A stretch of 64,000 nucleotides of DNA from Halorussus limi (GCF_023238205.1 NZ_CP096659.1:682001-746000), one strand, 5' to 3'. Positions 50,951-64,000 are shown, counted from the stretch's first letter. A program made the numbers and translations. Notes: generated by a model from the sequence alone, not told the origin.

Positions 50951-51937
50951 ATGCGAATACTCGTTACCGGTGGTGCGGGGTTCATCGGCGGCCATCTCGC
51001 CGAGGAGTTCGCCCGCGACGGCCACGACGTGGTCGCACTCGACAGCTTCGAACCGTTCTACGATACGGGCATCAAGGAACACAACGTCGAGGCGGCCCGC
51101 GAGGCGGCCGCGGAGAGCGACGGGTCGTACGAACTGATTCGGGGGGACGTACGCGACGAGGCGGTCGTAGACGAGCAGGTCGGCGACGCCGACGTGGTCT
51201 TCCATCAGGCCGCGCAGGCCGGAGTCCGAACCAGCGTCGAGGAACCCCAGAAGGTCAATGACATCAACGTCGCGGGCACCCTCAACGTGCTGGAGGCCGC
51301 CCGTGACTCGGACACTGAGCGCGTCGTCGTCGCTTCATCGTCGTCAGTGTACGGCAAGCCGGAGTACCTGCCCTACGACGAGGACCACCCGAACACGCCC
51401 GTCAGTCCCTACGGCGCGTCGAAGGTGGCTCAGGAGCAGTACACCCGCGTCTACAACGAGGTGTACGGCCTGCCGACCGTCTCGCTCCGGTACTTCACCG
51501 TGTATGGCCCGCGAATGCGGCCGAACATGGCCATCTCGAACTTCGTCTCGCGGTGCACGAACGGCGAACCGCCGGTCATCTACGGCGACGGCACCCAGAC
51601 GCGGGACTTCACCTTCGTCGGCGACGTGGTCGAAGCGAACCGAACGCTGCTGGACACCGACGCCGCCGACGGCGAGGCGATGAACGTCGGCAGCACGGAC
51701 AACATCGAGATTCGGACGCTCGCCGAGGAGATTCGCGACCAACTCGCGCCGGAGTTGGAACTAGAGTATGGCGAACGCAACGACGCCGACGCCGAACACA
51801 CCCACGCCGATATCTCAAAGGCGAAGGAACTGATCGGGTACGAACCGACGACGACCATCCGAGAGGGCGTCGAGGAGTTCACCGAGTGGTACCGAGCAAA
51901 TCGGGACTGGTACGAACCGCTGGTCCGGAACTCCTGA
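50951..51937 (+). CDS. NDP-sugar epimerase/dehydratase of the extended SDR family
   Basis: The 328-residue enzyme has the Rossmann motif VTGGAGFIGGHL (residues 5-16), SSSSVYG near residue 133 and YGASK (YxxxK active site) near residue 153. It has the C-terminal substrate domain of UDP-glucose/GalA 4-epimerase relatives. It acts on nucleotide sugars feeding N-glycan or polysaccharide synthesis; the exact sugar cannot be set. It is the last clearly core-type gene before the GC drop at the accessory region. Confidence 0.9.
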   Translation: MRILVTGGAGFIGGHLAEEFARDGHDVVALDSFEPFYDTGIKEHNVEAAREAAAESDGSYELIRGDVRDEAVVDEQVGDADVVFHQAAQAGVRTSVEEPQKVNDINVAGTLNVLEAARDSDTERVVVASSSSVYGKPEYLPYDEDHPNTPVSPYGASKVAQEQYTRVYNEVYGLPTVSLRYFTVYGPRMRPNMAISNFVSRCTNGEPPVIYGDGTQTRDFTFVGDVVEANRTLLDTDAADGEAMNVGSTDNIEIRTLAEEIRDQLAPELELEYGERNDADAEHTHADISKAKELIGYEPTTTIREGVEEFTEWYRANRDWYEPLVRNS

Positions 51938-52281
51938 CTGGTTGCTCTTTACTTCCTGCTATCAACGTAAGTGGGTTTTTGCTGGCGTATATTTCCATCA
52001 TTATACCTGTGAACGATATCAAGTCTTCTTGTCGCGCTAGCGGCGTTGCTCTCGTCCCTCGTCGCCGTGTAGGAAGTGCCGACGATAGCGGTCCGAGGGT
52101 TCGGCGCTCACCTAAGCAAAAAGTACTCAAGAGTGACCTTGAACAAACTTTCTATGGGTCCCCTTTCACCATCCTCCTCCAAGGGTAGCTACCGACGAAT
52201 GACGCACCGATTCGGCCTACTCTGCCATGCGAGTCACCAGGTGAATTACGACGCCGAATTGACTGCGCAAACGGAGGGAGT
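51938..52281. other. Low-GC boundary region with no recognised gene
   Basis: The 340 bp right after the epimerase become A/T-richer (TTTTTGCTGGCG, ATATTTCCATCATTATACC). I find no frame with a credible protein. This is a probable boundary of the accessory island. A 12-bp match to 53143-53154 (TACTTCCTGCTA at 51950-51961) was noted but is not a convincing att site. Confidence 0.5.
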
Positions 52282-52516: not shown

Positions 52517-53470
52517 TTTCGGTCTTCAGTCGGTATTTGCGGACTGTTTCTACACCCCTTCAGTCCGTGTATTTGACCGCAAGATGTTCGCAAAGCTTCC
52601 GAATGCCGGTCTACAAATCGGCTGTTTCCCGAAAGTTATGCTGTATGAGTGAGTGTAGACTGCTGTTTTGCGTTATTAACTTGTGGGGTTCTAGGGTTAT
52701 CGAAACGATTCTACGTATTGCTTGATTTCTTCGGAGAGACATGGTGTACGTATAGATTCTGGTCTGTGAGTGGTCTGGTAATCAGTATATAGATGGTTCC
52801 GATTCTGATTCGGTATCGGTAGAAATGGAATTTGACGGTAGATCGCCGGTTTTGTTGTCGAATTCGGGCGTTTCGCCGTAGTAGATTCAGGAGAGGCCTC
52901 CGGTTCGGGGCTGAGTGCGAAAAAATGGGGTCGTGAAGGCTTCTGTGTGGTGAAAATACCGTAGGCGGTCGTCGTTAGAAGGCGCTCCTGTAACGCGTCC
53001 CCGGTACGAGGCGGACCAAATTCCTGGATACACCCTTGTTGTGCGGTCGAATTTGCGGGAATTGTTCGCTGAAATCGCAGGGCAACTCAGGTCTACATGC
53101 TCGTTTTAGCGCCGCTCCGGGTCGGTCTCGAATCAGGTGGTCTACTTCCTGCTACGTGCGTGGAATTGGGAACTGGGTGAAAGGGTACATCGTCCACGAG
53201 AGCCGTTCTTTCGGCTAATTCACGAGGTGTGAACTGCTTCGGGGGTAAGTGGTTCGAGAACGCTTGTTCTCACGGGAATCGGAGATTGCCGAACGATTTC
53301 GAGACAGCCGCCTGCGTTTCCTGTCGATTCAGACGGATGCAAAGCTATTCAAGTAAAAACGTGTCTGGAAGCGTGTTGAAATCGACATCTGGTACCATCA
53401 AGTATCCCGGTTGCATTTGTGCCGGTACTCTGGACCGAATCGCTTCGATAGCGGCGTCCCTCGATATGAG
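52517..53470. other. Gene-poor low-GC region upstream of the primase gene
   Basis: The 950 bp have clearly lower GC than the core and no credible protein frame. There is a short hairpin GAGAAC-GCTT-GTTCTC at 53256-53271. Such A/T-rich non-coding stretches beside a primase gene may hold an origin of replication, a regulatory RNA or degraded genes. Peptide-like fragments in several frames (for example around 53130-53220) could be remnants of a lost gene, but I cannot identify one. Confidence 0.45.
53256..53271. repeat. Small inverted repeat upstream of the primase gene
   Basis: GAGAAC and GTTCTC with a 4-base loop, about 200 nt upstream of the primase-like gene. It might be an operator or part of an origin. 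Confidence 0.35.
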
Positions 53471-54742
53471 ATGACAATGCTTCCGACTGCTTCCGACCTT
53501 CCCAAACTGCTTGTTGAGTACGACCAGTGGGTGTGCTGGCGCGAACAGACACGCGGCGACAACCCAACGAAGGTTCCTGTGAACCCCCACACGGGACGGT
53601 TTGCGTCCGCGACCGATGACGAGACATGGGGGAGTTTCGAGACGGCACGTGAGTATGCAGTTGACGGATCGGCTGAAGGGCTCGGCTTCGTCTTCTGTGA
53701 TGACGACCCCTTCGTGGGGGTTGACCTTGACGACGCCCGTGACCCGGAGACGGGAACGCCGACCGACTGGGCGAAATCCATTATCGACGAACTCAACTCG
53801 TACACCGAAATCAGTCCGTCTGGAACGGGCTATCACGTCCTCGTTGACGGTGAACTACCGCCAGGTCGGAACCGGCGAGGTGACGTTGAACTCTACGAAA
53901 CTGCCCGATTCTTCACCGTCACCGCCAACCACGTTGAGACGACTCCGACCGGAATTATCGAACGGACAACGGCTCTTGCAGGCGTGTACGCCGACCATGT
54001 CGCCGACGAAGACGAACATGAGAAAACGGACGGCGAGCCAAACACGGAATCCAGCGGCGGGGATAACGAACTTACCGGAGCTGAAACAAGTAGCGCCGAA
54101 GCGTCCGCATCACCGAACGAGGCGCTTTCGGACGAGGAGTTGCTTGCTCGGGCGCGAGCAGCGTCCAACAGCGCGAAGTTCGAGCAACTCTGGCGTGGTG
54201 ATACCCACGGGTACGACAGCCAATCTGAGGCCGACATGGCGCTTGCGTGCCTCCTCGCATTCTGGACCGGCGGCGATACTCACCGCATGGACCGACTGTT
54301 CAGACGGTCGGGCCTCATGCGTGAGAAATGGGATGCCGTTCACTACGCCGACGGAAGTACCTACGGCGAAAAGACGATTGAGCGTGCTAATAACGTGACG
54401 ACCGAGTACTATTCGCCGAACGACGAGCACGATCAACAAACCCAGACAGACCCCGACGACGGAGCGGACGATTTGTCTGTTAATTCGGCGACGGCGTCTG
54501 CATCCGTTCGTAATGTTCAGCCTTCGAAGGATGAAGGAACTATCTATGAGCGTGAGCAGGCCCGTATCGAGACGATTACGAGGCTTGAACAACGGCTCCG
54601 AGAGCTCGAAGAAGAGAACGAACGTCTCCGTGAAGAACGCGATGCTGAACGTGCAAAACGGAAAGCACTCGAAGACGATAACTTACAGGAGTCTTCGCCT
54701 ACTGGGATCATCTACCGGCTCAAACAGATTCTATCTGGATGA
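53471..54742 (+). CDS. NrS-1-polymerase-like primase-polymerase of a mobile element
   Basis: The 423-residue protein begins with an AEP-type primase-polymerase domain (about residues 1-170). It has an acidic metal site GVDLDDA near residue 78, SPSGTGYHVLVDG near residue 115 and RFFTVTANHV near residue 150. A second domain (about residues 220-320) with ADMALACLLAFWTGGD and SGLMREKWD matches the helical part of phage NrS-1 polymerase. A coiled coil (about residues 365-410) and a short C-terminal tail follow. It probably primes or copies element DNA. It starts at ATG 53471, in a low-GC region. Confidence 0.8.
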   Translation: MTMLPTASDLPKLLVEYDQWVCWREQTRGDNPTKVPVNPHTGRFASATDDETWGSFETAREYAVDGSAEGLGFVFCDDDPFVGVDLDDARDPETGTPTDWAKSIIDELNSYTEISPSGTGYHVLVDGELPPGRNRRGDVELYETARFFTVTANHVETTPTGIIERTTALAGVYADHVADEDEHEKTDGEPNTESSGGDNELTGAETSSAEASASPNEALSDEELLARARAASNSAKFEQLWRGDTHGYDSQSEADMALACLLAFWTGGDTHRMDRLFRRSGLMREKWDAVHYADGSTYGEKTIERANNVTTEYYSPNDEHDQQTQTDPDDGADDLSVNSATASASVRNVQPSKDEGTIYEREQARIETITRLEQRLRELEEENERLREERDAERAKRKALEDDNLQESSPTGIIYRLKQILSG

Positions 54743-54790
54743 TATGGACGGTTGGGAACCTCAAAGAGAGGTGTACGGAACGAATCTGCA

Positions 54791-55567
54791 TCACATTCTC
54801 TTTTCAGATATTTCAACGCCTGGCTTATTCTCCATCGAGAGGAGGTGGTTGTAGGTTTGTGCGACAGTAGCGAGGAAAAAGACCCCGAGAAATGCAGATC
54901 CGAATTGTGCAATCAAAAATCCGAGGATATCGGGGAGAACGATTCCCGGGATTCCGAAACCGATGCTGACCAGCATTGCGATGATTGCGATGACGATGCC
55001 CAGTCCGAACAATCGTAGCCGATGGCCACTAGTCAGTTGCCAACTGTTCCGGAACCCTTCGATGAAGTTCTGATCCTCTACGGCGACATAGACTTCCCAG
55101 AAAAATAGGCTCACGAGCAGGAACAAGCCTGGAACAACGAGGAAGATGAATCCAATAGCGATGGTGATTCCAAAGATGATGCCTCCGATGATGAGGTTCA
55201 GTCCCGCCCACAAGAGGTTGTGTCTGAAGTGCGCTTCGGGGATCTGCTCTGTTTCCTCAGTTACGAACGTCCGTAGTGCACCGATTGTAACGACTATCGA
55301 GATGATTCCGAGAAGCAACGAGAGAAGACTCGTGATTACCGGTGAGAAACCCAACGATGGTGCGTAGGGCTGCATCCCTTCCGCTGGAACGGGCCCCATA
55401 CCCGGCCCGCCCATTGGGTCCGGAAGCGTAGTGGATTGAGTTGGAGTGGGCAAGAACAATCCCTCGAGAAGAGAAATCAGGTAGAAAATACCGATGAAGA
55501 GTAACCCGTTTCGTGCTACAGTTCGTTCGTACCCATCACTCACAACGTCTCCAATATCAATTGGCAT
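54791..55567 (-). CDS. Membrane protein with six helices (glycerophosphodiester-type membrane domain)
   Basis: The 258-residue protein has a cytoplasmic start MPIDIGDVVSDGYERTVARNG, an external Pro/Gly/Met-rich loop after the first helix and about six transmembrane segments (for example NLIIGGIIFGITIAIGFIF and IVIAIIAMLVSIGFGIPGIV). The pattern resembles the membrane domain of haloarchaeal DUF7847-like proteins. ATG 55567 is preferred to the upstream 55591. It is convergent with the primase gene and follows the EVE-like gene on the same strand. Function is unknown. Confidence 0.7.
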   Translation of the reverse strand: MPIDIGDVVSDGYERTVARNGLLFIGIFYLISLLEGLFLPTPTQSTTLPDPMGGPGMGPVPAEGMQPYAPSLGFSPVITSLLSLLLGIISIVVTIGALRTFVTEETEQIPEAHFRHNLLWAGLNLIIGGIIFGITIAIGFIFLVVPGLFLLVSLFFWEVYVAVEDQNFIEGFRNSWQLTSGHRLRLFGLGIVIAIIAMLVSIGFGIPGIVLPDILGFLIAQFGSAFLGVFFLATVAQTYNHLLSMENKPGVEISEKRM

Positions 55568-55706
55568 CTGTATCACCAAGAACCACGTCAACTACGAAAA
55601 AATTGGTAGCCGATGAAAAGCTCCCAGAAAGAAGCCTCGATTTCCGTAGACGGCTGTTACGAACTCTCGGAGCTGTTTGAACCTCTAATGTGCAGACATG
55701 CGCGAG

Positions 55707-56261
55707 TCATCCTCCAAAGTGGTCTTCTGCAATCGTCTCCAAAGAGTCGTCTGGACGTGAGTTTGAAGAGCCTTCCTGTGACTCCATCGAGTCGACGAGA
55801 TTACGAACGCGGTCAATATCCGAAGCCGTTATCTGAGCAATGTTGAAGCCCTCTTGACCACAGTAATTCATCTGCTCGGAGAAGGAGCCTTTCTCGATCT
55901 CCTCCTGAATATCACTATAGGGAATCTTGGGAATCAGTTCTTGGATGGATGAGAATTCAAGGCGCGCTCCATCTGATTCACTAAGAATCACGCTCTCTAC
56001 GGTCAAAAGATGGCTTAAACAGGCTCCATGTTCGTCAACACTTCCAGTACAGTAAACTAGAACTTCATCTCCCGGTAAAATACTCTGCCAGGCTTCTCGT
56101 CGTCCATATCCTTCTCGTTTCCAGAATGGACTGGCGTTGAAATACTCCCCGTGCTTAAGTGGTTCATCACAGAAGCGTGGTCCTTTCGCGCCAGCGATGT
56201 AACGGCGGTCAGCTTTCTCTTGGATGGAGTGCCCACTTACCTGAATGAGGAAGGTCGACAT
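55707..56261 (-). CDS. EVE/PUA-like domain protein
   Basis: The 184-residue protein has the EVE-type layout: FLIQVSGHS at the N-terminus, WQSILPGDEVLVYCTGSVDEHG near residue 58, a beta-rich SHLLTVESVIL, and a closing helix with GFNIAQITASDIDRVRNLV. EVE domains read modified bases in DNA, RNA or small nucleosides, and often occur beside restriction or defense genes. The last 35 residues are a Ser/Asp tail. A/T-rich sequence just upstream (56265-56330) holds its promoter. It lies 89 bp downstream of the HerA-like gene. Confidence 0.5.
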   Translation of the reverse strand: MSTFLIQVSGHSIQEKADRRYIAGAKGPRFCDEPLKHGEYFNASPFWKREGYGRREAWQSILPGDEVLVYCTGSVDEHGACLSHLLTVESVILSESDGARLEFSSIQELIPKIPYSDIQEEIEKGSFSEQMNYCGQEGFNIAQITASDIDRVRNLVDSMESQEGSSNSRPDDSLETIAEDHFGG

Positions 56262-56350
56262 AGGTACTTAGCGCATCCTTTCCCCTATCTTATCAAACTA
56301 TATGTATACTATTTCGTATCTCTCCCTCGATAGGGTTTCTACTTCCCTTA
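56262..56350 (-). promoter_or_regulatory. A/T-rich promoter region of the EVE-like gene
   Basis: The 89-bp gap after the HerA-like gene contains AACTATATGTATACTATTTCG (plus strand), which reads TAGTATACATATAG on the minus strand, about 40-50 nt upstream of the EVE-like ATG. This suggests that the EVE-like gene has its own promoter. Confidence 0.45.
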
Positions 56351-59300
56351 TCATGGTGATTCAAGATCGAGTAACGACCCCCGAACATACCCAAGCGTAT
56401 GAATCTCTGAACACCCAGGTGCGTCAAGGCGGAACGCTCGCGGAGGTGATGAGCGACTGTACTCCTTTTCGACCCGTCGGTCACCAGTCGGCGGATCGTT
56501 TAGCGCTTCCAGCACGTCGTGGGCGGCGTCGCGGTTTTTCACAATCCAGATAGCGTCCTCGGGGTCAAGAGCCGCCATCTTGTCGTAGTCCTCGGGGACC
56601 GCTCGGAGGATATCGTTGTTGGCTCGTTCGGCCTCGACGACAGCTTGAACGTTTCCGTCAGCGTCGAGCCCTGCAACGTCCAGTCGGTGGCCGTCGTCGA
56701 GTTCATAGTAGGGAACAACCTCAACGACGTCAGAATCGCTGTCGTCTACATAGGCTTCTTCGATGTACTGGTGACCCATCTTCACCATCACTCGGTGGAG
56801 ACTCGATTCGCCGAGATCACCGACACCGTGACCATAGGCAATCCCTTCGCGGTGAGCGGCCTGAATTTCATTCCGGCCGTCCGCAGTCACCGTGTAGAGA
56901 CGGTGTGGGTGGTCACAGTCAATACGGAGTAGGTCATCGTCGACGAGTTCGTCTACTGCTTCGGATTCGATGCCGACGTACTCTTGGAGGCGGAGCATGC
57001 TGTCCCAGCAGATATCGTACTCCCATTCAGGGTTGTACTCCCCTTGATGGGCCGCGTAGACGACCTGCAGGAATGCGAGTTGGCGGTCGGAATACTCGCT
57101 TTCCTCGCGCTCCTGTGGCGAGAGGGTGAGATTCACCTCACAGACCGGAATCTTCTCACGGTCAACGCGGTCAAGGCTCGAACAACACTTGATACCGCGC
57201 TTCAGGCCAGCAGGCGACGGGTCGTGGCGACTCTCACACCCCGTGCAGACGATAGCGTGGGCGTCTTCATTGTATTGGATGCAAGTGGGCAGTCGCTTCG
57301 TGTACGGAAGTGCTGAATCGACGCGTGTATTGGTTGTCTCAGTAGCGGTAGCGCTGTTTTCGCTTCCAGTAGTTTGGATTGACGTATTCGGTCGCGACTG
57401 AGCCTGTCCATCAGCGAGGAAGTCGAGTCCGTAGTCAAGCCGGGTTCGGTCCTTGACGCTGTCGAGGAGAGCCTCGAACGCCAACGACTGTGTTTCAGTT
57501 AGCGGGTCGTCGCCCTCTGGATGACCCGGTGGGAGTGGGGCGGACGAAAGGAGGAACGGCCGCGGTTCGCGGTCTTGGAACCCGGCCGGGAGACTGGCGA
57601 ACCATTGTCCGCGACGAAGCGCCCGTAATCGATTCCCGACCTCGCTCGGAGGGATGTCTTCGGTGGCGAGTCGCTTTTCGAGGTCGGCGTCAACCGCGAC
57701 GTTCCCCGTGATGATAGTCGAGATGTTGTTCAAAATCTCGGCGTAAGCCTCTGTATCCGTGTTCCGGATCTGTGCCGGAAACTGCATCGCCAGCGTCACC
57801 GAGAGGTTGAACCCACGTGATTTAGCGAGGAGGTCGGTCATCAAGCCCGAGGCCGCGACCTCTGCGGCCTCTTCGACGTAGAGGTTTACCAGCGGCAGGT
57901 CATTAGTAACGTCGTCTTCGGGGGATTCCCTCTCTTTCGTGTGGAGACGTTGCCGACGCCGAAGTGCCGTCCAGAGGTTCGAGAGCAAGACGAGCGTGAG
58001 TGCTCGCCGACTCTCCGTTCGCAAGCCGCTTGTGTCGAAGATTACGACGGCGTCCTCGTTGAGTACGTCGAAGAAATCGAACTCCGGGTCAGGCGCTGTT
58101 TCGTCAACATTGCTATCGTTACGCTTACTGCTCGTATTCTGTGGGACGTGATTGAAGAGGTGAGCGAGGCGGTCGTCGAGCGAGACCTTCTCGATGCGGT
58201 TCATCACGCCCTGCATGAGTTCGTCGAACGAGCGCTTGCTGTTCGTGACGACACCACCGAGCATCACCGCGAGATCGTCGTCCGTAACGGGCGGTGCATC
58301 TCGCGTCTCGGCCATCTGTGTGGCTTTCTGCTGGAGGTCCCGATGGCTGAACGCGTCCGCCCCGTGGACTGGGTCGAACATCGCTTTGACGAGATAGCGG
58401 ATGATGTCTGGCGAGCGGACCGCACGCTCGAATCGGTCGCGGCCCATGATACCGATGAGGAGTTCGATATAGTGGTCGACCGTGTTCTGGACGGCGGTCG
58501 CCCGGTCGATACCAGCCTCCAACTGGGGTCGGATATCGAAGAACGAGAGCGCAGGGAGTGTTTCAGCGCAGTCGAAGTAGTAGACGTTGTCGAGCGTTCC
58601 GTACTTCGCATAGTGTGCCCGCAGGTATTCGATGGGCATGCCGTCGCCCTTCGGTTCGATGAGGATTGAGGCACCCTTGGTCGCGGCGTGATTGTCGAGC
58701 ATCCCCGTCGTAAGTCCGGTCGACTTCCCCGACCCCGTCTTCCCGAACCATGCAACGTGTAGGGGCTGTAGTTCAGGTGGAAGTGCGATAGGGTCAGTGA
58801 GGGTATCGTCTTGGGAGAGAGGTTGGCCGAGCGTGAGGCCCGACTTCCGGTACTGAGTGAGTTCGTCCTTCGTCGGTCGTGGCAGTGCAGTTTGTTCACC
58901 ACGAGATGGGGCAAGTGCCCGCGTCCCGGCTGTGGTGAGGGCCGCGCCATCAAGCAGGCAGAAGTTCGGGGCTTCCGTTGCGTCGGCAACGATACCGGGA
59001 CTCGTGTTCGCTGTCCACGGAGCCTTCGTTGTGAGTCGCTCGTAATTCGGTGACTGGAATGTACGTTCTTGGATTGCCTCAAAGACAGCGACTCCATCGC
59101 TTCCGGTGTGAACTGTCGCGTCGATTTCGTAGCTCGTCCGACTGACGTCACTAAACGCAGACGTGAACTCTCGAACTGCACGCTTCGGGTCGTCAGTCGG
59201 CGGTTCTGTACCGCTATCGTCTGTGATAGCGACGGCCCGTGCATTCACCTCGAACGAACAGCGAGCGTCTTTGCCTTCAAGCTCTGCAAGGCGCTCTTCG

Positions 59301-60043
59301 TCGCTTGCTGAAAGAACGGCCTCTGAGTCGTCGGGTGATCCAAAAACCGCATTCGCCAGTTGTCCGCCGAGGGTATCGATGTTCATCTCGATGTCGAGAC
59401 GGCGGTCTTCGAGGTCGTCCGTCCAGTCTGGTTTCGGACGGAGTAGAGTTTGGTAGACCATCGGCAGGTCACGCTCGGCCATCGTCTCAACGACCGCCGT
59501 CAGCGGAACTCGTGCATGGTCGTCCTCGTCGTGACTCGTGAACTCTTCGAAGGACGTGAGTTGGGTCTGCCAGTCCCGGCGTCTGTCGGTCCGGCCCTGA
59601 AATTCAACGCCAGCGATATTGGTGGCCTCACTATCGGCTTCGTGGGGTATCTCTTCAGACGGTGTGAGTTGGTCAGTATGCCATTCTACGCGGTCGAACT
59701 CGTATGAGTTCGGGAAGACACTACGGAGGATGCGTTCCAGTTCATCAACCGCGTCTTGCTCGTCGATACCGACGTAGTAGGAGAGCGGAGATTCCGTGTT
59801 GGAGACAAGCAGGAACTCCAGCGTAGGACGAGCCGGTCCTCGGAAACGGTCGAGGAGGCCGTCTGGTTCAGAACGAGTGATTTGTTGCAGTCGCTTGAAC
59901 TGACGCTGTACAGTCTTTGGGTTGAGAGCGTTGTCAGTCGGTTGGACGTGGATGTACTCGTCCAGGGATTCAGCTTGGTTAGTTTTCTCGTCAGCCGGTT
60001 CCTCAGCGGTCTTGGTGTTCGTAACGGGGTCAGACTTCGCCAT
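56351..60043 (-). CDS. HerA/TraG-family ATPase with zinc, winged-helix and nuclease-like C-terminal domains
   Basis: This 1230-residue protein has an N-terminal region of about 400 residues with no known fold. A HerA/VirD4-type motor follows, with Walker A GKTGSGKS (residues 434-441) and Walker B LYVEE (721-725), then a sensor-like TLAMQF. The C-terminal part has cysteines at about 933/936 and 953/954 (possible zinc finger), a winged helix with TVTADGRNEI (about 1050-1065), and a PD-(D/E)xK-like site: RLDVAG (D1122) with VVEAER (E1137, E1139). It could pump DNA for conjugation or partition, or act as a translocase-nuclease. The start is ATG 60043. Confidence 0.8.
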   Translation of the reverse strand: MAKSDPVTNTKTAEEPADEKTNQAESLDEYIHVQPTDNALNPKTVQRQFKRLQQITRSEPDGLLDRFRGPARPTLEFLLVSNTESPLSYYVGIDEQDAVDELERILRSVFPNSYEFDRVEWHTDQLTPSEEIPHEADSEATNIAGVEFQGRTDRRRDWQTQLTSFEEFTSHDEDDHARVPLTAVVETMAERDLPMVYQTLLRPKPDWTDDLEDRRLDIEMNIDTLGGQLANAVFGSPDDSEAVLSASDEERLAELEGKDARCSFEVNARAVAITDDSGTEPPTDDPKRAVREFTSAFSDVSRTSYEIDATVHTGSDGVAVFEAIQERTFQSPNYERLTTKAPWTANTSPGIVADATEAPNFCLLDGAALTTAGTRALAPSRGEQTALPRPTKDELTQYRKSGLTLGQPLSQDDTLTDPIALPPELQPLHVAWFGKTGSGKSTGLTTGMLDNHAATKGASILIEPKGDGMPIEYLRAHYAKYGTLDNVYYFDCAETLPALSFFDIRPQLEAGIDRATAVQNTVDHYIELLIGIMGRDRFERAVRSPDIIRYLVKAMFDPVHGADAFSHRDLQQKATQMAETRDAPPVTDDDLAVMLGGVVTNSKRSFDELMQGVMNRIEKVSLDDRLAHLFNHVPQNTSSKRNDSNVDETAPDPEFDFFDVLNEDAVVIFDTSGLRTESRRALTLVLLSNLWTALRRRQRLHTKERESPEDDVTNDLPLVNLYVEEAAEVAASGLMTDLLAKSRGFNLSVTLAMQFPAQIRNTDTEAYAEILNNISTIITGNVAVDADLEKRLATEDIPPSEVGNRLRALRRGQWFASLPAGFQDREPRPFLLSSAPLPPGHPEGDDPLTETQSLAFEALLDSVKDRTRLDYGLDFLADGQAQSRPNTSIQTTGSENSATATETTNTRVDSALPYTKRLPTCIQYNEDAHAIVCTGCESRHDPSPAGLKRGIKCCSSLDRVDREKIPVCEVNLTLSPQEREESEYSDRQLAFLQVVYAAHQGEYNPEWEYDICWDSMLRLQEYVGIESEAVDELVDDDLLRIDCDHPHRLYTVTADGRNEIQAAHREGIAYGHGVGDLGESSLHRVMVKMGHQYIEEAYVDDSDSDVVEVVPYYELDDGHRLDVAGLDADGNVQAVVEAERANNDILRAVPEDYDKMAALDPEDAIWIVKNRDAAHDVLEALNDPPTGDRRVEKEYSRSSPPRAFRLDAPGCSEIHTLGYVRGSLLDLESP

Positions 60044-60283
60044 GGATTCAGGGGGTCATCGCGGAGGGTAAATCGGTGAATACCCCTCTCTACCAATCCC
60101 GGATAAATCCCTGTTCTTACGCAGTGAGAGGTAAGAAATGGAGGAAATCAATGAGCTTGTCACTCTGAAAACCTTCACGCCAAGATTTGCGTTGCTTCCG
60201 TAACCCCAGATAGGAAACTGTATCTCCTGAATTCTGTCGTGGAACTCGTCCCTCTGTTCGAGAAGTCATTTCAGAAATTCATC
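60044..60283. other. Promoter region of the HerA-like gene
   Basis: The 240 bp between the Bat-type gene and the HerA-like gene (both on the minus strand) have no credible frame. They carry the promoter of the HerA-like gene and the 3' end region of the regulator gene. Confidence 0.4.
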
Positions 60284-60979
60284 CTAGTCTTCCATGGCGA
60301 GGTTGATGTATGGGAGGATGAAATGGAACACCTCTCGCTGGGCTTTCCGCATGTGGTTTGACGCAGTTGTCTTCGTAATTCCCATTTCGTCAGCGATTTC
60401 TTCGAGAGTCACTTCCCGTGGTATCTCGAAATAGCCGTGGTCATATGCGATGTTCAGTAGTTCACGCTGACGTTCCGGAATTGAGTTTAGCAACTCTTGC
60501 CACTCAGCTTCGCTAGGAACGATTTGTCGGCTGTAGTTCTGCGAGAGTCGGCGGACATTCACGTTGCCGAATTCACTGAGGAGTGTGGTCGCTTTCGAAA
60601 GTTCTTCTCGATCCTCCAGCAATAGGTCGAAGCATTCCCTCCCATTCTCCAATCTAGTTGGACCGAGGGGAAGGAAGCCTTCATAGAGGAGTGTCTGCAG
60701 TGGTGTGAACTCAGAGAGCGAGCCACGGAGAAGTAGCGTCGCTGAGACGCGGCCCTGCGAACCGGTGTTATAGCGCTCAACGACGTCGACTGTCTCGGTA
60801 TCCTCGTGTTCTTGAATTACCTCAAGGACCTCGTCAAATTCGCTCGTCTCGAGTGCCATGATGCCGATATAGCGGCGGTTCTGGAACGTCGATGCAACGA
60901 ACTCACCGAAGATATCGTAGCTCTGGAGCTGAGCCGTCCAGTCGCCCTCATACTGGACACAGATTTTCGCAGTTAACAT
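60284..60979 (-). CDS. Bat-type HTH transcriptional regulator
   Basis: The 231-residue regulator has a ligand-sensing-like N-terminal region of about 150 residues and a C-terminal HTH_10 domain (LNSIPERQRELLNIAYDHGYFEIPREVTLEEIADEMGITKTTASNHMRKAQRE). Proteins of the bacterio-opsin-activator group regulate nearby catabolic genes in haloarchaea. I use ATG 60979 (MLTAKIC); 60988 adds three residues. It lies 51 bp downstream of the MmgE/PrpD gene on the same strand and probably controls that operon. Confidence 0.85.
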   Translation of the reverse strand: MLTAKICVQYEGDWTAQLQSYDIFGEFVASTFQNRRYIGIMALETSEFDEVLEVIQEHEDTETVDVVERYNTGSQGRVSATLLLRGSLSEFTPLQTLLYEGFLPLGPTRLENGRECFDLLLEDREELSKATTLLSEFGNVNVRRLSQNYSRQIVPSEAEWQELLNSIPERQRELLNIAYDHGYFEIPREVTLEEIADEMGITKTTASNHMRKAQREVFHFILPYINLAMED

Positions 60980-61030
60980 GGGTGTCAATGGGGGTCACGC
61001 TGAGACCAAGGTAGGTTCGTAGTGGCACCA

Positions 61031-62368
61031 TCAATTCCATGGAGCCAACACATCATGAACCGATGATGTAGGTTGATTCAGTACCCTATTGACGGTCTCG
61101 AACGTGTTCGATGGAAGTGTCGGAGAGAGAAGCCCGTCAATCTTCCGCATGAACTCCGACTCCGAGAGCGGTCGGTCAACAGCACCTCTTGCCTTAACGA
61201 TGTCCGAACGGTGTGTCTGACTCTCGGTTTCAACTATAACCCTTGCTAGACACTCTTCGGGAAACCGACTGTCTATCTCTTCATCCGTAGTAAGTCTAAT
61301 CGACTCCGCGAGAGCCTTGACTTCTGGGTCATCCCATTGGGCCGGAGAAAGATTTGATTCAGTGAATTCACCCTGACTCGCCATTACGGCGACTGGATAT
61401 GGATAGGAGTACTCGGCCTCCTCAACTGATTGCGGATGTCGAGTCTGTAAGTGTGTCGCCTCTTCGAATGTCTTAACGGTGATGCACTCAACAGTCACTG
61501 GAGTAATGTCGTGGCTAGCAACGAGTTCGCGCATCGCCTCGATTCCGGGTTGTGCCCACCGGCAACAAGGGTACGGCTTGAGATAGCTTTCCGTAATGTG
61601 ATGAGCCGTTCCTAAATCCTCAATAAACCTTGTGGACTCGTCAAACACTGTACCTGAGGCTGTGAACTCACGTTCGCTCAGTGCGGCCGCTTCAACACCC
61701 GTGTAACATCCCCAGCCGATACCATCTTTCGTCATGCCCGGTTGCTCAACCCCACGCATGATGGGGGTTCGTGGTGCATGATACTCTGCAGTGCCCAATG
61801 CAGCAGCCATCGTCCCCACATCATAGTCTCTGAGACGCCCAACTGCGGCAGCAGCACCAACGGCACCCCATGAACCCGTTCCGGTGTAAACGCCATCGAC
61901 ATCGTGTAACGTCAATCCCGTTCGGACGGCGATTTCATACCCGATGTAGACTGCATTGAGGAGTTCCGCGACAGAGGCATCTGTCTCTTCGGCGACCGCT
62001 AGCGCTGCGGGGACCACGACTGCTGCCGGATGACCCTTGACGTCACGATGGCCGTCGTCGATGTCAAGAACGTTTGCGGCTGTTGCATTCGCGAGTGATG
62101 CCTCGGTGGGTGGAGCTGTCCGGCCGTTCCCATCGAGCACTGTTACATCGCCATTGTCGTGTGCACGGTCAAGTGCATGGTCACGGACTACCTCACCACT
62201 CCCATATCGGTATCCTGCTGTGATCGCAGCGAGCGTATCTAGCACTCGGCGGCGAACCGTCTCTGTGACAACTTCGTCATAGGTGGACAGATTCGCACAG
62301 CGGGCAAATTGTGCGACTTTCACTGTCCCAGAGGCCGAATCTTGGGCCTCTGTTTCACTGCCAGTCAT
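61031..62368 (-). CDS. MmgE/PrpD family protein
   Basis: The 445-residue protein belongs to the MmgE/PrpD family, which includes 2-methylcitrate dehydratase, cis-aconitate decarboxylase and iminodisuccinate epimerase. Motifs DIDDGHRDVKGHPAAVVVPAALA and YLKPYPCCRWAQPGIEAM mark the large and lid domains. The start ATG 62368 lies one base after the Rieske stop; earlier in-frame starts would overlap the Rieske gene. The substrate is unknown, but the operon context suggests an organic-acid or aromatic catabolic step. Confidence 0.85.
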   Translation of the reverse strand: MTGSETEAQDSASGTVKVAQFARCANLSTYDEVVTETVRRRVLDTLAAITAGYRYGSGEVVRDHALDRAHDNGDVTVLDGNGRTAPPTEASLANATAANVLDIDDGHRDVKGHPAAVVVPAALAVAEETDASVAELLNAVYIGYEIAVRTGLTLHDVDGVYTGTGSWGAVGAAAAVGRLRDYDVGTMAAALGTAEYHAPRTPIMRGVEQPGMTKDGIGWGCYTGVEAAALSEREFTASGTVFDESTRFIEDLGTAHHITESYLKPYPCCRWAQPGIEAMRELVASHDITPVTVECITVKTFEEATHLQTRHPQSVEEAEYSYPYPVAVMASQGEFTESNLSPAQWDDPEVKALAESIRLTTDEEIDSRFPEECLARVIVETESQTHRSDIVKARGAVDRPLSESEFMRKIDGLLSPTLPSNTFETVNRVLNQPTSSVHDVLAPWN

Positions 62369-62369
62369 T

Positions 62370-62837
62370 TCAGAGGTACACGACGACTTGGTCGTCTTCG
62401 ACATCCACCTCGTACGTATCAACAGGCGGTTCGTCACCCTCAAGGTCGACATCACAACCACAGCTATCGTCACTCGGGGTTTGCCCACTTTCGCCGTCCT
62501 GTGACGATTCGACGGCCGTCTCGTATGAGCGGGCCTTTACTTTGTGGGGGTTGAATACTGATTCACCGGACGTGATCTCAAACTCCCAGCCGTGCCACGG
62601 ACATCTGAGGATGTGGCCATCACACTCCCAGTTGACTTCTCCAGGTTGCTCGGCCGTGACAGTACCGGTTACTTTTCCTTCGCAGAGCGGTGCTCGTTGA
62701 TGTGGGCAGTCGTTCTTCAATGCGTGATACTCACCGTCAACGTTGAACACGCCAACGGAGACACCATCTAGCTCCACGATTTTGCGTTCACCGGGTGCGA
62801 TCTCCGAAGTCGGACAGATTTCAAATCTCTTCTGCAT
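62370..62837 (-). CDS. Rieske-type ferredoxin
   Basis: The 155-residue protein carries the [2Fe-2S] Rieske motifs CPHQRAP and CPWHGWEF (Cys-x-His and Cys-x2-His), typical of a small electron-transfer ferredoxin or a nitrite-reductase-like small subunit. The C-terminal tail has an acidic stretch and a Cys-Gly-Cys. It lies 2 bp after the amidohydrolase stop and 1 bp before the MmgE/PrpD start, i.e. a tight operon. A dioxygenase partner is not in the window. Confidence 0.9.
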   Translation of the reverse strand: MQKRFEICPTSEIAPGERKIVELDGVSVGVFNVDGEYHALKNDCPHQRAPLCEGKVTGTVTAEQPGEVNWECDGHILRCPWHGWEFEITSGESVFNPHKVKARSYETAVESSQDGESGQTPSDDSCGCDVDLEGDEPPVDTYEVDVEDDQVVVYL

Positions 62838-62839
62838 GA

Positions 62840-63943
62840 TTAACTCGTGGGGAGGGTAGTCGGGTCGTCCGGGAGGCCGTACAGTTCTTGGGCGTTCTTC
62901 GCGAAGACGCGTTCTTCCATCTCATCAGGGAGTGGCGGGAGTGCGTACATGGGCGAGTCCGTATCCCAGTGTGGATAGTCGCTTGCAAACATCACCGTCT
63001 CCTCGGCATGCATCATCTCGAGGATACGGACGAGATCTTGGGGGTCGTTCGGCTCTTCGATAGGTTGGGTCGTGAACCGAACTTGGTCGCGGATATACTC
63101 GCTTGGTGGCTTCTGGAGATACGGAACTTGCGCTCTAAGCGCCTTCCAGTTTTTGTCCATCCGCCAGAGGAAGTGAGGAACCCAACTGAGTCCACCTTCG
63201 ATGAACACCCAATTGAGGTCAGGGAATTTCGCAAAGACCCCTTCGGCGGTGAGACTTACAAGTTGACCCATGCCATAGGTACCAAGCAGCGAGTGCCACT
63301 CAAAGTACGTGTCGGGGTGGCCAGCTCCGGTTGGCGGTCGCGTGACACCGTGTCCTTCTGTGTATGGGTGCATCGCGATAGGGAGCCCCATCTCTTCGGC
63401 CGCCTCGTACATCGGCCAATAGTATTCATGTCCATAGGGGAGCTGTGACGCATACGGCATCACGACTTGGACGATGCGGGGATGGTCACCAAGATTGCGA
63501 ATCATCTCGGCCATCCGTTCAGGTTTCTGTGGTGCTGCAATCAGCGACCCGACGAACGGACCTCCCTCCGAAAGCCAGCGGTCAATGACCCACTTGTTGT
63601 TAGCCACCGCAAGTTCGGCTGCATAGTCCCTGTTCGGGAGTGCTGTAAGGTTCAGGTAAGAGTTCCCGGTGAGAATTGCGTAGTCGACACCGTATTCGTT
63701 CAAGTGGTGCTCTTTCATCTTCTCGATGTCCGACCCTGGCTTACTCCCATCGTCCGGGATAGCATCACGGCGAGAGAACTCCGCGACGTTGTCGTAGAGG
63801 ATTGCAGGAGACTGGAGACCGCGATCCTTGTACCGGTCGGGAAGGTACTGGATGACCTCTTCCTCGTCTTTCCACCGTTGGTGGATGTCACAGTCGATGA
63901 GAGTTGGACCCTCACCGGACCTATCGAAATTGCGTCTAGCCAT
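62840..63943 (-). CDS. Amidohydrolase-2 family protein (ACMSD-like)
   Basis: The 367-residue TIM-barrel amidohydrolase has metal-site residues Asp-x-His in LIDCDIHQRW (N-terminal), a His in AMHPYTEGHG and an Asp in FASDYPHWDTDSP near the C-terminus. This group includes amino-carboxymuconate-semialdehyde decarboxylase and salicylate-type decarboxylases. It may decarboxylate or hydrolyse an aromatic ring-cleavage product. The first gene of the operon starts at ATG 63943 (MARRNFD). The sequence from 63944 to the window end (57 bp) holds its promoter. Confidence 0.85.
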   Translation of the reverse strand: MARRNFDRSGEGPTLIDCDIHQRWKDEEEVIQYLPDRYKDRGLQSPAILYDNVAEFSRRDAIPDDGSKPGSDIEKMKEHHLNEYGVDYAILTGNSYLNLTALPNRDYAAELAVANNKWVIDRWLSEGGPFVGSLIAAPQKPERMAEMIRNLGDHPRIVQVVMPYASQLPYGHEYYWPMYEAAEEMGLPIAMHPYTEGHGVTRPPTGAGHPDTYFEWHSLLGTYGMGQLVSLTAEGVFAKFPDLNWVFIEGGLSWVPHFLWRMDKNWKALRAQVPYLQKPPSEYIRDQVRFTTQPIEEPNDPQDLVRILEMMHAEETVMFASDYPHWDTDSPMYALPPLPDEMEERVFAKNAQELYGLPDDPTTLPTS

Positions 63944-64000
63944 CGGTGGCTGAATCAAAATGGGCTATCGTGGTTATAGTTCAGGGCGCACTTGTGTCGA

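Follow-up and report, generated by a model that had tools for sequence, protein, structure and literature searches.

What does a low-GC segment of a haloarchaeal genome that carries a primase, a membrane protein, a possible modified-base reader and a large ATPase encode, a mobile element or a base-guided defense system? The segment lies in a 64,000-nucleotide stretch of Halorussus limi (NZ_CP096659.1:682001-746000; hereafter the window), and a sequence-only reading had left two answers standing: the core of an integrated plasmid or ICE, or a translocase-nuclease guided by a base-recognition domain. We found all four predicted ORFs in place (Table 1), the ATPase and then the EVE-like gene following each other on the minus strand across an 89-bp gap, and a GC content of 0.50–0.60 in the segment against mostly 0.60–0.72 across the remaining window. 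The earlier reading held that the sequence does not decide between its two answers, but the co-occurrence comparison that it had itself proposed does decide. As set out below, the segment is very probably the left end of an integrated conjugation-type haloarchaeal element of ~30 kb that carries the EVE gene as cargo.

The low-GC island is sharply bounded, has the primase at its left edge and spans ~52–104 kb in window numbering: GC drops at 52,000 from about 0.63–0.68 to 0.50–0.60 and is back up to 0.69 at about 104,000. Inside it, DNA from 52,613 to 82,620 is collinear with Halorussus aquaticus at 86–92% identity, broken mainly at 59,957–69,216 and 71,481–74,183, and a third genome (G017) shows the same gene order at a DNA identity of about 69–77%. 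Collinearity and GC profile thus place the four genes, earlier framed as a self-contained module, at one end of a larger element. Using our own ORF calls by simple scoring for genes outside annotated records, we found that the element encodes two T4SS-type motors, a channel-like VirB6/TrbL protein, membrane proteins, TFB, an OB-fold protein and a primase, a block conserved in two related genomes. A VirB4 motor, a VirD4/TraG coupling ATPase, VirB6/TrbL and a TFIIB homologue, four of the features of archaeal ICEs, are all present. Extra cargo accounts for about 9 kb of the ~30-kb element in the present strain. Within the window this insertion encodes an HTH_10 regulator, MmgE/PrpD, a Rieske protein and an amidohydrolase, and beyond it a nitrilase-like protein, a universal stress protein and a glycine-betaine-type ABC transporter.

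Table 1. Features of the segment and of the surrounding element, in window numbering; the window ends at 64,000.
Feature	Position	Strand	Basis or remark
Part of the putative integrated element inside the window	52613-64000	.	Collinear with H. aquaticus, GC profile; element continues to ~82,620
Conserved, mostly non-coding stretch upstream of primase	52613-53470	.	Aligns to H. aquaticus; homology starts at 52,613; about 850 bp
NrS-1-type primase-polymerase	53471-54742	+	PF22763, phrog_1829; start ATG 53471, TTG 53411 also possible
Membrane protein, EI24/GPDPase_memb-like	54791-55591	-	Weak PF07264/PF10110, hydropathy
Stand-alone EVE-fold protein, predicted modified-base reader	55707-56261	-	AlphaFold and Foldseek
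Predicted VirD4/TraG-type coupling ATPase, FtsK/HerA superfamily, 1230 aa	56351-60043	-	P-loop, TIGR03743, VirB4 synteny
Winged helix and likely PD-(D/E)xK-topology domain at ATPase C-terminus, residues 963-1230	56354-57157	-	AlphaFold, conserved residues
Cargo insertion (part inside window; continues to 69,216)	59957-64000	.	Absent from H. aquaticus element; Pfam
OB-fold protein (past window end)	69,406-70,545		
TFB (past window end)	70,612-71,760		PF00382 2e-32
MNT nucleotidyltransferase and HEPN pair (past window end)	72,314-73,420		Typical toxin-antitoxin arrangement
DUF6735 (past window end)	74,706-75,344		
Conserved membrane protein as two overlapping ORFs (past window end)	76,475-78,267		
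TrbL/VirB6 (past window end)	78,252-79,655		PF19590 3.6e-25
Second membrane protein (past window end)	79,652-80,665		
VirB4 (past window end)	80,662-82,605		39% to plasmid VirB4s, P-loop GKLGAGKS

A search of the island for an integrase gave no PF00589 (Phage_integrase) match, att-like terminal repeats of the element were not found, and the subset of island ORFs scanned with Pfam gave no relaxase match. With neither an integrase nor att repeats detected, recombination is its probable way of entry, and the element may no longer be mobile; on the same grounds we call it a conjugation-type element that is integrated and possibly defective, rather than a proven ICE. The conserved stretch upstream of the primase, in which we found no repeated 9-mers, inverted 10-mers or tandem arrays, is a candidate replication or transfer origin. 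In each of the three collinear genomes the element has sugar-metabolism genes in its vicinity. To its right in the present genome, at 87217–90011, are decayed UDP-glucose dehydrogenase, nucleotidyltransferase and epimerase genes, which resemble intact sugar genes adjoining the element in G017. An epimerase direct repeat of 378 bp (77.5%) links 51,560–51,937 with 89,638–90,010. We set aside Campbell-type integration through this repeat as only a guess, the degenerate copy being part of the decayed sugar-gene set outside the conserved element.

Evidence on the nature of the element came from a linkage count at the 33 strongest places encoding relatives of the ATPase, drawn from 59 genomes. At 22 of the 33, the ATPase relative directly followed a VirB4 gene of the same strand no more than 1.5 kb away, and at 26 a VirB4 gene lay within 25 kb. 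Plasmid records with homologues number 149 for the ATPase, 129 for the primase and 269 for VirB4, and the operon order in annotated plasmids is membrane proteins, VirB4, ATPase, primase. On pNG600 of Haloarcula marismortui, the gene after a VirB4 of 71% identity bears the annotation 'type IV secretory system conjugative DNA transfer'. The genome in which the present element sits has a further set of these genes, a divergent one, on C4, a contig of 168.6 kb. Because its relatives directly follow VirB4 at two-thirds of the places counted, the ATPase is most likely a VirD4-type coupling ATPase, the DNA-loading motor of the element. More broadly, ATPase and primase recur in relatives with genes for VirB4, TrbL/VirB6, TFB, OB-fold proteins and Cdc6. 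This recurrence supports the plasmid or ICE core of the sequence-only reading, whereas its EVE-guided translocase-nuclease was not supported.

The same count turned up ATPase-primase pairs without a nearby VirB4, in G010, G013 and G033 (separate contigs, draft) and in a second copy in G017. Such pairs would suit an orphan plasmid-maintenance function, in which ATPase and primase serve replication or segregation by FtsK/HerA-like pumping, their linkage to VirB4 being vestigial, as would the finding of neither a relaxase nor an integrase. We nevertheless consider this explanation improbable, given how often VirB4 adjoins ATPase relatives, the conservation of VirB4 among the collinear elements (87–96% protein identity) and the presence of VirB6/TrbL. 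We read the pairs in G010, G013 and one of the G017 copies as decayed or helper-dependent forms; the ATPase-primase pair may also act on its own.

That the large protein is a HerA/TraG-type ATPase is upheld by its P-loop (GKTGSGKS), which is nearly invariant in an alignment of 21 homologues that also conserves the Walker A core and many motor residues. The profiles that match it do so weakly but point the same way: SXT_TraD TIGR03743 at 1.7e-6, a CD1115 VirD4-like model at 1.9e-4, DUF87/HerA at 4.6e-3 and TraG-D_C at 6.8e-3. Hydropathy revealed no transmembrane segment, and the N-terminal anchor of type IV coupling proteins is missing. An AlphaFold model of the last 268 residues (pLDDT 83.7, pTM 0.84) opens with a winged helix, after which come one helix, three strands, another helix and a last strand, an alpha-beta-beta-beta-alpha-beta core with an acidic motif of the PD-(D/E)xK type. 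Strands two and three bear D1122, E1137 and E1139, the helix after them bears K1155, and D1122, E1137-A-E1139 and K1155 are conserved in 19 relatives having the same tail. Foldseek returned no match of any kind to the tail below 0.001; its weak matches at E about 0.01–0.1 include the PD-(D/E)xK structures Card1, Can2, NucS/EndoMS, SfsA, R.BspD6I2 and YaeQ. The PD-(D/E)xK-like end noticed earlier is therefore backed by topology and conserved residues, though not by a significant structural match, and on the strength of one model the fold is likely. We found no Pfam family for this domain, and a Replic_Relax search of the genome for the ATPase C-terminus was empty but uninformative, no control having matched either. 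The ATPase of plasmid C4 has a different C-terminus (L054:10640-11152), and a similar H/PD/ExE/K pattern noticed there on visual inspection was rejected, as hhalign gave no support for a link to the domain in the window.

Against the conjugation-type reading stands that MOB-suite classes every plasmid record bearing the ATPase as non-mobilizable. The modeled nuclease-like tail is a candidate for the relaxase function missing in archaea, and the conserved domain offers one concrete candidate for the missing DNA-cutting step. The stronger proposal, that the winged helix and PD-(D/E)xK tail replace the relaxase missing from archaeal conjugation and unite motor and cutter in a single protein that might work on double-stranded DNA, is speculative, and we hold it to be unlikely.

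The predicted EVE fold was recovered. An AlphaFold model of the protein (pLDDT 70.9, pTM 0.68) matches solved EVE structures in Foldseek with probability 1.00, and the best twelve matches are all EVE-domain structures, among them PH1033, MJECL36, Rpa0253 and Atu2648. Also matched are human THYN1, PSPTO5229 and the restriction enzyme VcaM4I, known EVE (PUA-like) readers (PMC7641849) whose fold the protein shares; unlike them it escapes the Pfam EVE model, PF01878, as it does all of Pfam at E<=1, and its base-reader role is predicted. Matches to TAL effectors in a PDB sequence search were discarded, since no stretch passed alone. Relatives are rare: of 293 genomes in the order, 6 have one, and a search of 84,980 species genomes gave 10 loci (two of these being one H. 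aquaticus locus counted twice), while none was found in viral contigs or plasmid collections.

Outside the present genome, the EVE and ATPase genes are neighbors only in H. aquaticus, where the ATPase is ~91% identical, but the eight other EVE loci have no such ATPase adjoining, and most ATPase homologues come without an EVE gene. What varies is the slot between ATPase and primase. It holds the EVE and membrane-protein genes in the present genome and H. aquaticus, a Fic-domain protein in the third collinear genome and elsewhere a DUF4352 protein, TnpB with a DUF3604 protein, or nothing. In other settings, the genes next to EVE relatives encode an HNH nuclease, EVE-McrB, a type IIG R-M protein or a mad8-like HerA. 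Because the family is rare, the slot varies and relatives sit near restriction genes, the EVE gene is likely swappable cargo that moves between elements, likely restriction-related, and not a guide for the ATPase. Its product most likely reads a modified DNA base, by predicted binding, and serves restriction or counter-restriction. EVE contexts published for archaea agree with a cargo-type modified-base reader (PMC7641849).

These data bear directly on the idea that the EVE protein recognizes modified incoming DNA and loads the ATPase, which would translocate and then cut through its C-terminal domain. The tandem, co-directional arrangement with its 89-bp spacing, which makes co-expression of the two genes likely, speaks for such a system; the EVE fold and the nuclease-like tail are both supported, EVE relatives occur near restriction genes and in one fusion to NucS, and PADLOC matched the ATPase weakly to mad8 of MADS (1.6e-8). 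PADLOC convincingly matched no other MADS component in the segment, however, and the EVE-ATPase adjacency is confined to two closely related species. Where EVE is lacking, the ATPase family is still widespread and retains the nuclease-like tail, and a Fic protein takes the place of EVE in the third collinear genome. We therefore give EVE-guided defense little credence, and the position of the EVE gene as variable-slot cargo argues against naming a new defense system from adjacency alone.

The call of a primase-polymerase is confirmed by matches to the NrS-1 helix-bundle (PF22763, 3.9e-30) and to PHROG primases (phrog_1829, 8e-89, coverage limited to profile positions 4–324 of 772). The protein consists of a prim-pol domain and a helix-bundle, and 14 homologues show no variation in its AEP/prim-pol motifs D85/D87, H122 and E140 (numbered from the start at 53471). 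A helicase domain is missing: the phrog_1829 match is N-terminal only, and the remaining ~60 residues match only coiled-coil models. The membrane protein has about 4–6 hydrophobic segments by hydropathy and matches to PF07264 (8e-4) and PF10110 (1.2e-3) that are both below cut-offs. Apart from the present genome, its gene stands beside these genes only in H. aquaticus, and it is cargo of the element.

Taken as an integrated conjugation-type element, the locus suggests a route of transfer. While mobile, the element would be copied by its primase and OB-fold protein, joined in relatives by Cdc6, and the VirD4-type ATPase would gather element DNA through its winged helix. The nuclease-like tail may cut or process the gathered DNA, which the motor would then pass to a VirB4-VirB6 membrane pore for transfer into another cell. 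A cargo slot behind the ATPase gene would accommodate the EVE protein and the membrane protein beside it. Packaging into vesicles instead, with a VirB4-like ATPase loading plasmid DNA as in pR1SE-like (apHPV) plasmids, which are haloarchaeal, integrate into chromosomes and carry one VirB4/TrwB-like ATPase, two conserved core clusters (ORF6-9; ORF17, 21-25) and a variable cargo region (PMC10818511), is hardly credible for an element with two separate motors and TrbL/VirB6, in which the cluster 1 products of that paper (subtilisin-like protease, CotH/S-layer), by their descriptions, were not found among the scanned genes.

The gene content of the present conjugation-type element resembles that of known archaeal systems. 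ICEs of Thaumarchaeota carry VirB4, VirD4/TraG, VirB6 and TFIIB and no recognized relaxase (PMC6563490). Transfer of pT33-3 needs VirB4 and VirD4 with no relaxase known, and archaeal conjugative plasmids without a recognized relaxase include those of Sulfolobus, reviewed alongside it (PMC12857230). The present element shares with these the VirB4 and VirD4 pair, a VirB6-type membrane protein and, among the ORFs scanned, the lack of a recognized relaxase, and with the Thaumarchaeota ICEs also a TFIIB gene. It differs in its NrS-1-type primase, in the lack of a detected integrase, in that its transfer is a prediction and in a VirD4-type ATPase that has no transmembrane anchor and bears a winged helix and nuclease-like tail. 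Haloarchaeal plasmid operons for VirB4, VirD4 and primase (NZ_CP031308, NZ_CP101826 and contig C4) have homologous VirB4, ATPase, TrbL and membrane genes. Those genes are contiguous and co-directional, whereas the present ATPase lies 20 kb from VirB4, on the opposite strand and next to cargo. Fusexin-bearing haloarchaeal IMEs, which encode HerA, VirB4, TraG/VirD4 and XerC/D (PMC9259645), are likewise integrated regions of deviating composition with VirB4, TraG/VirD4 and HerA-type genes, but the present island has no XerC/D-type integrase. The ATPases of HerA-NurA and MADS (mad8) share an FtsK/HerA superfamily motor with ours, which differs in having no matched NurA (Pfam, PADLOC) or other MADS neighbors and in its synteny with VirB4. 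Together with its many haloarchaeal relatives (149 plasmid records with the ATPase), the element provides a well-sampled family from haloarchaea whose genes include VirB4, VirD4 and VirB6.

Several further observations concern the genomes compared. In the H. aquaticus record NZ_CP100400.1, the last ~55.5 kb repeats the first ~55.5 kb, since the overlap of the circular assembly was left untrimmed, and genes there look duplicated when they are not; we accordingly rejected 'two copies' of the element in this species, which agree at 99.8–99.9% over ~55 kb with frameshifts in one copy. In Halorientalis persicus, a 1222-aa EVE-McrB-type protein (PF01878, AAA_5; L064:677-4345) is encoded near a stand-alone EVE-like gene. 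A different EVE-HerA neighborhood occurs in Halorussus amylolyticus (L051/L059), where an EVE-like gene adjoins genes for a DUF932 protein, a mad8-like HerA ATPase and a large helicase. Finally, one haloarchaeal protein joins a distant EVE-like domain (30% identity) to a NucS-type PD-(D/E)xK domain (PF01939, 3.8e-6; L083:4521-5441), a candidate modification-dependent endonuclease judging by its domains.
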